NCBI GenBank assembly: GCA_009691255.1
Contig: SHUT01000007.1
Location: forward strand, 1 to 63,619
DNA from: Ilumatobacteraceae bacterium
Lineage (GTDB): Bacteria; Actinomycetota; Acidimicrobiia; Acidimicrobiales; Ilumatobacteraceae
DNA: 63,619 bases
Direction of reading: 5' to 3'
The notes below the pieces were generated by a model. That model did not search any database. It was not told where the DNA came from and saw nothing but the letters and a program-made list of their open reading frames with translations. The stretch's first letter is position 1. Each line of letters begins with the position of its first letter. Position numbers and translations under genes: made by a program. Positions 46,475 through 50,993 of this stretch are shown here, in pieces.

Positions 46475-47671
46475 TTACTTAGCAGCGTCAGCACACTTGA
46501 CTGCCGCATCTGTTAGGCGCTGTGCCCGCGCATCTGTGGCAAGATTTGCAGCCATCTGATTCATGACATATGCAAGCGAGAGTTGACGTGACTCTTGAGC
46601 AAAAGCAACTGATCCGCCTGCTCCGGAATGTCCATAACTACCGCTCCCCGCATAAGGGGTGAATTGACCGTGCGTCATGAACCCCATTCCGAACGTTGTT
46701 GGCATGATCAAGCACTCGTCTGCTTCGCCAGCAGGAGTGATTGTGGCCGTTGCGCATTCCCGAATGCTGTCGTTTATCAACTGCACGCCATTAATTGGTC
46801 CCAGCGTCGCTGCATATATGGTGGCAAGCGATCGAGCGTTTGTGATTCCGTTTGCAGCAGGTATTTCTGCGGCATGCACAGCACGCGTATTGAACACTCC
46901 GTCAGTGCTCGTAATTTCACCAAATGCACCGTTTAGTGAAAGCGCACGACCACCTGGGCTATCTGGTCCCATAAGATCAGCGAGCATCTTGGCAACCATA
47001 GGGTCAATTGGTGGCGTATTGGGATCAACGGGTTCGTTTGAGAGTCGCGACACTCGGGGCTCGTATTGCTCGGGAAGACCAATAAACATTTCGACTCCGA
47101 GTGGACCAGCGATTTCTTCTGCAACAAAGCGCCCCGGACTGCGGCCATCTACTCGACGAATAAGTTCACCTGCAAGCCAACCATAGGTCAGAGCGTGATA
47201 GCCGTGTTTTGTCCCGATTGGCCAGCTCGGCGCAGTGGCGGCGAGTCGAGATGTGATCGTGTTCCAGTCCAATGCTTCTTGCAAACTGATTTTACCCACG
47301 ACGGTGGAGAGTCCGCACTGATGAGACAATAATTGTGCGACCGTTGCATCTTGTTTGCCATGTTGAGCAAACTCTGGCCAATACTGCGCAACTGGTGCGC
47401 CGTAGTCGATGACGCCACGTTGGACCAACATCGCAACGGCGATCGCAGTTATTCCCTTTGTTGTGCTGAACACCAATTGCAATGCATCACTGGTGTACTC
47501 AGTTTTTTTGTCTTTATCAAACCAACCACCGGTTAGGTCAACAACGCATTTACCATGATGAAATGCGCTAACACCAGCGCCTAAATCCGCGCCGCTATCT
47601 AAGTTCGCCTGAAACGCCTCTTTGACGCCTTCCCAACCAGTCGCGACGAAGCCCTGCACTGGAGCATTCAT
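46475..47671 (-). CDS. Serine hydrolase of the beta-lactamase/EstB family
   Basis: 398 residues. Nucleophile motif STTK (Ser69-Lys72), a Tyr-type second motif at YHALTYGW, and the C-terminal HSGAGG in place of KTG. These define class-C beta-lactamase-fold esterases rather than true antibiotic-hydrolysing enzymes. No signal peptide. The ATG overlaps the stop of the LLM oxidoreductase gene by 4 bases. Confidence 0.88.
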   Translation of the reverse strand: MNAPVQGFVATGWEGVKEAFQANLDSGADLGAGVSAFHHGKCVVDLTGGWFDKDKKTEYTSDALQLVFSTTKGITAIAVAMLVQRGVIDYGAPVAQYWPEFAQHGKQDATVAQLLSHQCGLSTVVGKISLQEALDWNTITSRLAATAPSWPIGTKHGYHALTYGWLAGELIRRVDGRSPGRFVAEEIAGPLGVEMFIGLPEQYEPRVSRLSNEPVDPNTPPIDPMVAKMLADLMGPDSPGGRALSLNGAFGEITSTDGVFNTRAVHAAEIPAANGITNARSLATIYAATLGPINGVQLINDSIRECATATITPAGEADECLIMPTTFGMGFMTHGQFTPYAGSGSYGHSGAGGSVAFAQESRQLSLAYVMNQMAANLATDARAQRLTDAAVKCADAAK

Positions 47672-48729
47672 CGGCCGACTTCATCGACGATTGAGCGTAA
47701 TGTCTCCATTGTCTTGACGGCATCTGGTCCGACTGGATTAACCGACAACACAGTCACTCCGGCCTCCTTAAATGCCCCGACGCGCTCTTTGATGTATCCC
47801 CGTGGGCCTACCAAGTTAGATAACTCCAACCATTCACCAGGAACTTCAGCAGCCGCCTCTTTTTTCTTGCCATCCAAATAGAGGTCCTGAATTGCGACTG
47901 CTTCTTTTTCATATCCATAGGCGTGCGCAATGTCGTTATAGAAGTTTTTGCCGCGCGCTCCCATACCGCCGACATAGAGCGCCGTCGTCGGACGCGCGAA
48001 ATCTAAAATCTTTGCTTGTGCGTCTCCGGTGAGTGACTCATCAATCGCCAACATTCCGCCGGCGCTAATTTCAAGACGACCAAGCGATGGATCGCGCTTT
48101 GCCAAACCAGCCTTGAGTGGATTGCCCCATACATGCTGGAACTTCTCTGGGATAAACATGATCGGCAACCAACCATCAGCGTATGCAGCCGTTGCTTCAA
48201 CGCTTTTTTCCATCAGCGATGCCCACCAAATAGGAATGCTCGATCGCAGTGGATGATTAATAATCTTAAGTGGTTTTCCGAGTCCGGTTCCTTCACCATC
48301 TGGCAGTGGAATCTGAATCGTCTTGCCAGAATATTCGAGCGCCTTCTCGCGCTTCCAGACTTCACGACATACGTCCATGTATTCCTTGGTGCGTTGCATC
48401 GGCTTCTCGTACGGGATTCCGTGGAAACCTTCAATGACTTGAGGACCAGATGCACCAAGCCCCAAAATGAAACGGCCATCGCTGACATAGTCACAGCCAG
48501 CGGCCGTCATAGCCATTAGCGCTGCAGAGCGCGAGTAGATGTTGACGATGCCTGTTCCGATTTCTACACGATTAGTGACAGCCGCCAGATAGCCAATCTG
48601 TGAAATTGCATCAAAGCTGTACGCCTCAGCCACCCACACTTGATCAAGCCCTGCTTTCTCGAGTTCGACAACGCGTGCTGCAGATTCTTTAAAACCACCT
48701 GCATAATTAATCATCATCGATAGCTTCAT
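47668..48729 (-). CDS. LLM-class (F420-type) oxidoreductase
   Basis: 353 residues, luciferase-like TIM barrel. LDQVWVAEAYSFDAIS, TNRVEIGTGIVNIYSR, GRFILGLGASGPQV and ADGWLPIMFIPE match F420-dependent members. Good GGGAG Shine-Dalgarno before ATG 48729. Coupled to a serine hydrolase, suggesting a shared catabolic task; substrate unknown. FMN use cannot be excluded. Confidence 0.87.
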   Translation of the reverse strand: MKLSMMINYAGGFKESAARVVELEKAGLDQVWVAEAYSFDAISQIGYLAAVTNRVEIGTGIVNIYSRSAALMAMTAAGCDYVSDGRFILGLGASGPQVIEGFHGIPYEKPMQRTKEYMDVCREVWKREKALEYSGKTIQIPLPDGEGTGLGKPLKIINHPLRSSIPIWWASLMEKSVEATAAYADGWLPIMFIPEKFQHVWGNPLKAGLAKRDPSLGRLEISAGGMLAIDESLTGDAQAKILDFARPTTALYVGGMGARGKNFYNDIAHAYGYEKEAVAIQDLYLDGKKKEAAAEVPGEWLELSNLVGPRGYIKERVGAFKEAGVTVLSVNPVGPDAVKTMETLRSIVDEVGR

Positions 48730-48801: not shown

Positions 48802-49719
48802 GTGCTGAAGTCCTGCGACACTCACGGGGTGTCAATAGTCCCTCTTATCGCTCGGCGCTCTCTTGCTACTGGTCTTGCTTTAAACACCGTTCAATGGTCG
48901 AGCCCACAAACCCATTCGGGGACTCCACTGGTGCTGGTGCACGGCTTAGCCTCTAATGCGCGACTATGGGACGGGCCTGCTCAAGCACTCGTCAATCTAG
49001 GTCATCCCGTAATTGCTATCGATCAGCGCGGACATGGGCATAGCGACAAAACAGAATCTGGCTACGACATGGCAACGATCACAGATGATCTGGCCACCTT
49101 GCTTGAAGATCTGCGCGCCGATGGTTGGGATCGCCCAGTCGTTATCGGACAATCCTGGGGCGGCAACGTCGTTATTGAACTGGCATGGAAATACCCATTG
49201 CTCGTGCGTGGAGTTTGCGGCGTTGACGGCGGAATAATTGAACTCTCTCAATATTTCCCCGATTGGAACGACTGTAAAAAGATAATGGCGCCACCACGCA
49301 TCGCCGGCATGAAATTCGAAACACTTAACACGGCCATCAAATCAGCGCACGCTGATTGGTCGCCACAAGCCATCGCCGGAGCAATGAGCAACATGGAGCG
49401 ACTCGCTGACGGCACTATTAGGCCATGGCTGACATTTGACCGACACATTTTGGTTTTACATGGATTGTGGCAACATCGACCATCACAACGTTTTGCAGAG
49501 ATTAGCGTTCCAGTGATGTTCACACCCGCAGCAAGTTCTGCCACAATCGATGACGACATGACGCGTGGTAAAATTGCTGCACTAGATAGCGCTGAGCGCC
49601 TACTCAAGGCCTGTCGAGTCGAATGGTTTCGCCCCGCAGACCACGATTTACATGCTCAACATCCGATTAGATTTGCGGACGTCATCCACAGCGCATGTAC
49701 AGACGGATTTTTTTCATGA
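48802..49719 (+). CDS. Alpha/beta hydrolase
   Basis: Up to 305 residues. LVLVHGLASNARLWDG (oxyanion), IDQRGHGHSDK, nucleophile GQSWGGNV, and catalytic His in ADHDLHAQHP near the C-terminus. Start uncertain: GTG 48802 is the longest; GTG 48832 lies closer to the first conserved residues. Its stop overlaps the next start as ATGA, so the two proteins are likely made together. Confidence 0.83.
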   Translation: MLKSCDTHGVSIVPLIARRSLATGLALNTVQWSSPQTHSGTPLVLVHGLASNARLWDGPAQALVNLGHPVIAIDQRGHGHSDKTESGYDMATITDDLATLLEDLRADGWDRPVVIGQSWGGNVVIELAWKYPLLVRGVCGVDGGIIELSQYFPDWNDCKKIMAPPRIAGMKFETLNTAIKSAHADWSPQAIAGAMSNMERLADGTIRPWLTFDRHILVLHGLWQHRPSQRFAEISVPVMFTPAASSATIDDDMTRGKIAALDSAERLLKACRVEWFRPADHDLHAQHPIRFADVIHSACTDGFFS

Positions 49720-50993
49720 CCATGCCACGCATTCTTGCAATTATGGGCTCAGGCGAAACTGCACCAACAATGGTGACTACCCATCGTCGCCTAACGTCAC
49801 TACTGGCATCGTCTGTGCGCGCAGTAGTGCTTGATACTCCCTATGGCTTTCAGGAAAACGCTCCAGAGCTCGCCATGCGTGCGGTTGAATATTTTAAAAC
49901 AAGCATCAATGTCGATCTGACAGTTGCTGGTTTAGTACGCCTCAAAAATACCCACATCAAAGCAGACCCTGTTGAAGTTGAACATGGACTACGCAATCTC
50001 ACGGACGCCAACTATGTTTTTGCCGGACCAGGATCACCAACGTACGCGCTACGACAATGGAACGGAACACCAGTTGCTGGGATTCTTGCTGAGAAATTGC
50101 GCACGGGGGGCATTATTGTATTCGCATCTGCCGCCGCTCTTACTCTTGGAAAAGCAACAGTTCCTGTGTATGAAATTTACAAAGTTGGCGAAGATGTTCG
50201 ATGCCTTGACGGACTAGATCTCTTGTCAATCATTGGCATTAATGCGGCCGTCATCCCCCACTATGACAACGCCGAAGGCGCCAACCATGACACTCGTTTT
50301 TGCTATCTAGGCCAAACTCGTCTTGAAATGTTTGAGTCGATGCTCGACGACGACACGTTCGTACTCGGAGTCGATGAGCACACTGGACTAATCATTGATC
50401 TAGACACTCAAGTCGCCACTATTGTTGGCAATGGCACGGTCACTGTGCGTCTGCGTGCACAATCCCAGGTGTTTGCCGTGGGCGACACATTGTCTTTGGC
50501 CTACCTCCAAAATCCATGGGCAGCAACTGCAGTAACCGCAGTAACTCCGATGATTGTCGATACTGCGCCCACTGAGCACGATGACACTGCAGCACCTGCT
50601 TTGTCACTTGCCGCTGACACTAAAACTGCTGTTGCCGATTTTGATATCGCTATCCAAAACGCCGACGCACATGCTGCAGTGCGTGCAGTTCTCTTCCTCG
50701 AAGCAGCAATTCGTTCATGGTCAAGCGACACTCTTCAGGGTGATTCTGCTGACCATGCGCACGCCGCCTTGCGCTCAATGATTAGCCAACTAGGAGAAGC
50801 AGCAACATCTGGTCTACAGAATCCAAAAGACGTGATTGCACCATACGTTGACGCATTAATTGCAGTGCGCACAATCGTGCGTGCCGAAAAGCGCTTTGAT
50901 CTATCCGACATTATTCGCGATATTTTTGCCGCGCGAGGCATTGAAGTGCGCGACACGCCCGACGGCGTGCAGTGGGACCTACACGTGGTGTAA
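49716..50993 (+). CDS. Peptidase S51/cyanophycinase-like domain fused to a CysRS C-terminal-like domain
   Basis: 425 residues from ATG 49716. Residues 1-230 resemble S51/class-I-amidotransferase-like proteins: MGSGETAPTM, VFAGPGSPTY, a candidate nucleophile Ser138 in VFASAAAL, PHYDNAEG near 181, and GVDEHTGLIID near 218. Residues about 305-425 resemble the C-terminal part of cysteinyl-tRNA synthetase: a DALR-like helical bundle, then RIRDxLAxxGIxxxDTPxGxxW matched by IIRDIFAARGIEVRDTPDG and Trp420. No HIGH or KMSKS motif is present. Function unknown. Overlaps the preceding hydrolase by 4 bases and the convergent permease gene by 15. Confidence 0.75.
   Translation: MTMPRILAIMGSGETAPTMVTTHRRLTSLLASSVRAVVLDTPYGFQENAPELAMRAVEYFKTSINVDLTVAGLVRLKNTHIKADPVEVEHGLRNLTDANYVFAGPGSPTYALRQWNGTPVAGILAEKLRTGGIIVFASAAALTLGKATVPVYEIYKVGEDVRCLDGLDLLSIIGINAAVIPHYDNAEGANHDTRFCYLGQTRLEMFESMLDDDTFVLGVDEHTGLIIDLDTQVATIVGNGTVTVRLRAQSQVFAVGDTLSLAYLQNPWAATAVTAVTPMIVDTAPTEHDDTAAPALSLAADTKTAVADFDIAIQNADAHAAVRAVLFLEAAIRSWSSDTLQGDSADHAHAALRSMISQLGEAATSGLQNPKDVIAPYVDALIAVRTIVRAEKRFDLSDIIRDIFAARGIEVRDTPDGVQWDLHVV

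Follow-up and report, generated by a model that had tools for sequence, protein, structure and literature searches.

We identified, in a 63,619-nucleotide stretch of DNA from an Ilumatobacteraceae bacterium (contig SHUT01000007.1; the whole stretch is called the window here), a gene in which a hydrolase domain of the peptidase S51 fold is joined to the part of cysteinyl-tRNA synthetase (CysRS) that comprises its helical bundle and anticodon-binding domain, and the analyses confirmed that it is a genuine fusion. The gene (49716..50993, plus strand) encodes 425 amino acids in one open frame, and inspection of the open reading frames also revealed an alternative in-frame ATG at 49695 that would give a 432-residue product. 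On the plus strand, the gene encodes a Peptidase-S51/cyanophycinase-like domain (residues 3-265; 49722..50510), delimited by the profile match to 6nqc, by fold and by conservation, a variable linker (about residues 266-297; 50511..50606), apparent from the alignment and the pLDDT values, and a CysRS-derived tail (50607..50981) consisting of the helical bundle (298-367) and CysS_C (about 370-422), delimited by sequence profile and conservation. The first-pass annotation had assigned the first 230 residues to the S51-like half and the last 120 to the CysRS tail; the two halves lie where it placed them, but the S51 half extends to about residue 265 and the tail begins at about residue 298. Within the window, we found neither RNA families at the gathering score nor tRNAs with ARAGORN.

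When the window protein was searched alone, both halves gave Pfam matches under the cut-offs: Peptidase_S51 (PF03575) at residues 80-227 (E=1.1e-3; 19.2 bits, gathering score 23.9) and CysS_C at residues 376-420 (E=4.9e-4; 20.6 bits, cut-off 23). A profile built from 21 homologues recovered each half, matching the cyanophycinase-like structure 6nqc over residues 7-256 (E=3.7e-7) and, at about residues 295-423, the CysRS structures 8qhp (E=7.2e-10), 6ujd (E=3.3e-8) and 1li5 (E=4.2e-8). At a threshold of E<=0.1, CysS_C (PF23493) was found in 21/21 members (best 1.6e-10) and Peptidase_S51 in 12/21. The pairing of an S51-like domain with a CysRS tail was thereby borne out, including the C-terminal similarity whose absence the first-pass annotation had named as its refutation, and the HIGH/KMSKS core that it had described as missing is indeed absent from the 425-residue translation. 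No single Pfam or NCBIfam model for the pair was found, the window protein giving partial matches below the cut-offs, and two members (from Streptomyces and Nonomuraea) had no NCBIfam match at E<=0.001. The AF2 model of the fusion has a mean pLDDT of 83.5, with values below 50 at linker residues 275-294. Chance similarity is ruled out by the profile E-values together with the conservation across distant members, and an assembly chimera or frameshift join is ruled out because the single-frame architecture recurs in 132 distinct sequences. These 132 fusions are 150 full-length frames minus identical copies; five incomplete or stand-alone frames (L102, L119, L041, L156 and L157) were left out. 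A further 21 frames classed as tail-only were also set aside; they are CysRS genes, perhaps with some fusion fragments from contig ends (L046/L047, for example) among them. Since the rows counted below are related, the counts are not independent events.

Structural comparison gave strong evidence for the predicted fold of the N-terminal half. Residues 1-264 of the AF2 model matched 6nqc with a Z of 24.8, and the half matched cyanophycinase (3en0/7uqw) with Z 24, 1fy2 with Z 20.0 and other PepE entries with Z 16-22. The fusion thus resembles cyanophycinase and peptidase E (MEROPS S51) in fold (Z 16-25) and in the order of Ser, His and acidic residue, and differs from them in its own motifs MGSGETxPTM and HDTRxCY, in carrying the CysRS tail, and in that the window protein scores under the Pfam and TIGR02069 cut-offs, reaching 21 bits for the latter, a cyanophycinase equivalog model with a cut-off of 126.6. 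Conservation points to a predicted active site encoded on the plus strand by the codons of S138 (50127), E153 (50172), H182 (50259) and D220-E221 (50373-50378), each residue being invariant in 132/132 distinct fusions. In the GVDEHT segment, G218, D220, E221 and T223 are found in 132/132 sequences and H222 in 131/132, so that the candidate Ser138 and these residues of the GVDEHTG picked out earlier from the one sequence hold for the family. In addition, E221 aligns with the Glu of the GLREG segment of Xenopus PepE in a weak alignment (E=1.4), and by this one alignment E221 may be regarded as a weak candidate for the catalytic acid. The catalytic residues of PepE are Ser120, His157 and Glu192, and those of MccG are Ser133, His168 and Asp196 (PMC9239234).

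The nucleophile elbow is the feature in which the domain departs from its relatives. The SAG elbow is a feature of peptidase family S51, and the nearest solved structure, 6nqc, a peptidase of an acI-B1 actinobacterium, has SAGA, whereas the elbow is SAAA in 132/132 fusions, and as a result the oxyanion geometry may differ. This substitution, together with the existence of S51 clade II proteins without peptidase activity (PMC9239234), would suit an N-terminal domain that is catalytically dead or carries out another chemistry, the protein then being a regulator that binds tRNA-Cys. Against this stands the finding that the Ser, His and acidic residues do not vary in members down to about 40% identity, and we regard such a dead or diverted domain as distinctly unlikely; hydrolase activity of the fusion is, from the conserved residues, quite likely. 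The Cys nucleophile of class I glutamine amidotransferases is absent, its place being taken by Ser138 in 132/132 sequences. A second, separate S51-like frame was observed in the same genome (L192, G000:C25:7545-7763; 27 bits, above the Pfam cut-off), so the fusion is not the sole S51 relative there. Another frame of 258 residues (L157, G085:C166:50920-51414) resembles the N-terminal domain only and is possibly a free-standing relative without the tail.

The tail gave a weak fold match to CysRS in the models. When residues 299-423 of the full AF2 model were compared with 1u0b_B, a CysRS in complex with tRNA-Cys, the match extended over 117 residues with Z 7.7 and an rmsd of 16, and the designed bundle 8e0o reached Z 7.0 in the same list, within 1 Z of it. 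The tail predicted alone (pLDDT 90) had 1u0b as its top Foldseek match (E=0.018), and in its VIA list 1u0b scored Z 7.3 and was outscored, via the bundle half, by unrelated helical bundles of up to Z 9.8. The identity of the tail therefore rests on sequence. CysRS of E. coli contacts G34 of the anticodon via R423, R427, W432 and D436 (PMC12684709). By alignment with CysRS, the equivalents in the window protein are R385 (codon at 50868), R389 (50880), F394 (50895) and D398 (50907), all on the plus strand. R385 (E. coli R423) and D398 (D436) are each kept in 132/132 distinct fusions and R389 (R427) in 131/132, with one Lys, while residue 394 (W432) is aromatic in 132/132 (Tyr in 63, Phe in 63, Trp in 6). 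Across the 132 fusions, six positions within residues 376-422 are at least 97% identical, namely R385, R389, D398, R401, D413 and W420, with G417 (128/132) narrowly under this threshold. Three of the four contact positions are therefore among the six most constant positions of this segment, for which the chance is 0.005 in a simple draw that ignores relatedness, and the bundle half of the tail is less conserved than the anticodon-binding part.

We then compared the tails with CysRS of the same order, using 28 frames from 30 loci (none was recognised in L165 and L173). R427, D436 and R439 are kept in 28/28, R423 and D451 in 17/28 each and W458 in 4/28; R423, D451 and W458 are thus more constant in the fusions than in CysRS itself. 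R439 and D451 are, we assume, further anticodon contacts. The conserved residues of the tail could in part be structural, as CysRS shows the same constancy at R427, D436 and R439. It is also conceivable that the tail has been re-used as a protein module, for dimerisation or docking, and has lost RNA binding. Re-use of this kind is known for other synthetase modules, and the less conserved bundle half and the weak structural match to CysRS (rmsd 16) agree with it, but the G34-contact positions rank among the most conserved of the tail, and three positions are held more strictly than in the synthetases, and we consider this explanation rather improbable. As judged from these residues, the fusion probably binds tRNA-Cys. 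The guidance by a tRNA-binding tail suggested in the first-pass annotation is strengthened, since the four positions that contact G34 in E. coli are kept in the family. Its other suggestion, an amidotransferase-like protein that has kept an old module, is weakened by a nucleophile that is Ser instead of Cys and by the strong constraint on parts of the tail; in all, its architecture, missing core, Ser138 and hydrolase coupling stood and this alternative did not fare well.

The same genome encodes the ordinary components for charging tRNA-Cys. Its tRNA-Cys has the anticodon GCA, and its CysRS is encoded elsewhere, by a gene on contig 55 (G000:C55:2583-3935; L182, L222) whose product spans positions 1-465 of the 466 of TIGR00435, which rules out that the fusion replaces a tail-less CysRS. 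This CysRS keeps R427, W432 (as Phe) and D436, one of the four G34 contacts being lost; R423 is replaced by Leu, D451 by Thr and W458 by Val despite the GCA anticodon, and the fusion retains all three. Among the 28 CysRS of the order, Leu at 423 and Thr at 451 occur in 10 each. A CysRS paralogue (G000:C10:4993-5940; L223) covers positions 1-315 of the CysRS model, with the core and KMSKS and without the CysS_C tail, and is presumably of the MshC type, in which case mycothiol synthesis would be indicated. The paralogue and the fusion are both CysRS-derived, the former keeping the core and the latter keeping the tail without the core. Because the genome has tRNA-Cys(GCA), CysRS and this paralogue, the fusion is no stand-in for CysRS.

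The fusion is widespread among relatives of the organism. All or part of it was found in 43/61 relatives, in three of which (G002, G028 and G037) it is seen in pieces only, at contig ends or split over two contigs; 18/61 lack it, and besides the 43 another four match through the CysRS tail only. In the window's own family, all or part of the gene is present in 35/37 genomes, with assemblies of 1.1-2.5 Mb. A sample of 396 Actinomycetota genomes contained at least 28 with both halves, 15 from the window's order and 13 from five families outside the class; among the matches listed in this draw, most genomes show CysRS tails only, and four members of the window's family with larger genomes (G091, G151, G173 and G246) gave no match in it. 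When named genome contigs were searched with two patterns from the N-terminal half, at least 589 relatives were confirmed. Among the best 80 of these, the match reaches residue 420 or further in 78 and stops with the contig in the remaining two (L102 and L119); the records are mostly Actinomycetota, Acidimicrobiaceae/Acidimicrobiia and Ilumatobacteraceae MAGs, and we take the few labelled 'Ferrithrix', 'Bifidobacterium breve', 'Mycobacterium sp.' and 'Acidobacteria' for loose MAG labels. Four plasmid-collection records (two Streptomyces, one Streptomycetaceae and one Nonomuraea), one of them 11.85 Mb long, hold full-length members of 39-41% identity, and both annotated copies inspected are named 'hypothetical protein'. 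Large linear Streptomycetaceae plasmids carry the fusion (L188, 12001-13275; L189, 12001-13257), each with genes for DUF4331, class F sortase, tetratricopeptide and 'nickel transporter' proteins within about 11 kb. Mobile or phage origin was considered and rejected: there was no phage record, and none of four viral-contig pattern matches, searched with the window protein alone, was confirmed. In a tree built from few columns, 54 of the 132 fusion tails fall on one side of a branch with 100/98 support that separates them from the 28 CysRS tails, which is compatible with a single origin.

The gene overlaps an upstream gene for an alpha/beta hydrolase (48802..49719, plus strand), recognised by a GQSWGG elbow (S118) and conserved D142 and H281. 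The stop codon of the hydrolase and the ATG of the fusion share the four bases ATGA, and a hydrolase lies upstream on the same strand at 82/114 distinct loci (84/117 before three duplicate places were removed), which supports the coupling noted from the window alone; the 4-base overlap recurs at 37/114, with start codons chosen mechanically. At the 32 distinct loci without an upstream hydrolase, many with a flank of only 1.5 kb, the hydrolase profile gave no match either. Among the 61 genomes, a hydrolase orthologue (E<=1e-30) is present in 40/43 that bear the fusion and in 0/18 that lack it, and when one genome per family was taken (n=24) the figures were 6/8 and 0/16; the partner thus co-occurs with the fusion, in one direction. 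In G044, the hydrolase and the fusion are on different contigs (C73 and C59), indicating that the link needs no adjacency, and at two annotated Streptomycetaceae loci no gene annotated as such a hydrolase adjoins the fusion, which may therefore do without an adjacent copy. Over the 73 aligned hydrolase rows (frames of 230-400 residues among the 84), S118 and D142 are kept in 73/73 and H281 in 72/73, and we read these as the putative catalytic residues. A triple fusion that seemed to include the hydrolase in the long frame of L150 was ruled out, the hydrolase lying in another, overlapping frame. Downstream, a zinc-type ABC transporter operon (permease, ATPase and ZnuA; PF00950, PF00005 and PF01297; 50979-53676, minus strand) converges on the fusion gene with a 15-base overlap, and the permease is the convergent neighbour at 64/117 loci. 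Genes for a beta-lactamase-family protein (PF00144) and a luciferase-like monooxygenase, overlapping by 4 bases, are located at 46475-48729 on the minus strand, upstream of the hydrolase-fusion pair, and the monooxygenase recurs upstream at 31/117 loci.

A serine-hydrolase fold joined to an anticodon reader, in a genome that has CysRS and a paralogue, is best read as acting on acylated tRNA-Cys. We tentatively suggest, with a confidence somewhat short of even, a serine hydrolase that reads the anticodon of tRNA-Cys and takes off an acyl group that is wrong or damaged, that is, a trans-editing factor or deacylase. The protein would be a soluble serine hydrolase directed at tRNA-Cys: its CysRS-derived tail would recognise the GCA anticodon arm, the S51-fold domain would extend on the flexible linker to the acceptor end, and there it would hydrolyse the ester bond to an aminoacyl group that should not be present. 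The fusion would then act in trans, as a stand-alone editing or quality-control deacylase of tRNA-Cys, with the overlapping alpha/beta hydrolase as a possible functional partner. Ester cleavage on tRNA-Cys is, taken by itself, a possibility of about the same tentative standing, and which aminoacyl group would be removed we can only infer. PepE-type S51 peptidases take dipeptides with N-terminal Asp and cut just behind it. MccG, which belongs to S51, cuts an isoaspartyl-nucleotide (PMC9239234) and provides a precedent for S51 chemistry on an amino acid borne by a nucleotide; since PepE cuts behind a single N-terminal residue and MccG cleaves an aminoacyl-nucleotide, deacylation of a tRNA 3'-end may be a chemically short step. 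Truncated synthetases that lack the catalytic site and work as free-standing trans-editors have been described, ThrRS-ed being one, and the review section that covers them names no editor for tRNA-Cys (PMC9976931). The deacylase reading has points against it: 18/61 relatives have no fusion, and the SAAA elbow departs from 6nqc. Furthermore, CysRS is regarded as very selective, which makes a need for editing of tRNA-Cys less evident.

The same evidence can be arranged in two other ways. First, charged or uncharged tRNA-Cys bound to the tail might switch an S51 exopeptidase, so that peptide breakdown would track cysteine supply. Characterised S51 relatives include dipeptidases and cyanophycinase, the anticodon contacts are kept in the tail, and a second hydrolase co-occurs with the fusion, all of which such a gated peptidase or sensor would accommodate, but its nucleophile elbow is unlike that of 6nqc and no tie to cysteine supply was seen in a neighbour scan of the loci that covered genes of the window; we consider it unlikely. 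Second, the protein might be an MccG-like immunity enzyme that detoxifies a cysteinyl-nucleotide or another inhibitor directed at CysRS, as the cleavage of an isoaspartyl-nucleotide by an S51 enzyme (PMC9239234) suggests. A domain that binds the anticodon would presumably contribute nothing if the substrate were a free nucleotide, we noticed no genes of the mcc type in the neighbourhoods inspected, in the window and at two annotated Streptomycetaceae loci, and the gene is retained by almost every genome sampled from a group with small genomes (35/37), all of which argue against this role and make it highly improbable.

Compared with known systems, the trans-editing reading places the fusion beside ThrRS-ed, with which it would have a common plan, a hydrolase plus a tRNA-reading module without the aminoacylation core, the activity of the fusion being predicted. 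AlaX with C-Ala is likewise a trans-editing factor with a synthetase-derived tRNA-binding module. The hydrolase fold of ThrRS-ed and AlaX differs from the S51 fold, and the target of the fusion is probably tRNA-Cys and not the Thr or Ala tRNA. With MccG, the microcin C immunity enzyme that cuts an amino acid from a nucleotide, the fusion has the S51 fold in common; MccG acts on a small toxin, and the passages on it mention no RNA-binding module (PMC9239234). With CysRS, it shares the C-terminal bundle and CysS_C (PF23493) in profile (about residues 295-423) and in the G34-contact residues, and differs in lacking the catalytic core. Searches of the open-licence PubMed Central literature found no paper on the architecture of S51 plus CysRS tail, and no tRNA-Cys trans-editor was seen in the titles and abstract openings of the open-licence literature surveyed. 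We therefore regard the protein as known parts in a pairing for which no description was found, and the tRNA that it targets is likely to be a new one.

Cysteine is readily oxidised and alkylated, and two of its oxidised forms, cysteine sulfinate and cysteate, are nearly isosteric with Asp. Since PepE-type enzymes recognise Asp and the sulfinate and sulfonate mimic it, an S51 pocket brought to tRNA-Cys would lend itself to clearing oxidised Cys-tRNA-Cys, and by this analogy the family might be a so far undescribed trans-editor specific to tRNA-Cys, freeing it of cysteine that is oxidised or damaged in another way, which is a speculative and very unlikely refinement as it stands. In this family, a CysRS tail lives outside a synthetase, in a genome whose own CysRS has lost some canonical residues, and the question of whether Cys-tRNA is proofread becomes directly testable with one purified protein from an unnamed family. 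The architecture suggests an enzyme that would act on something carried by, or sensed through, tRNA-Cys.
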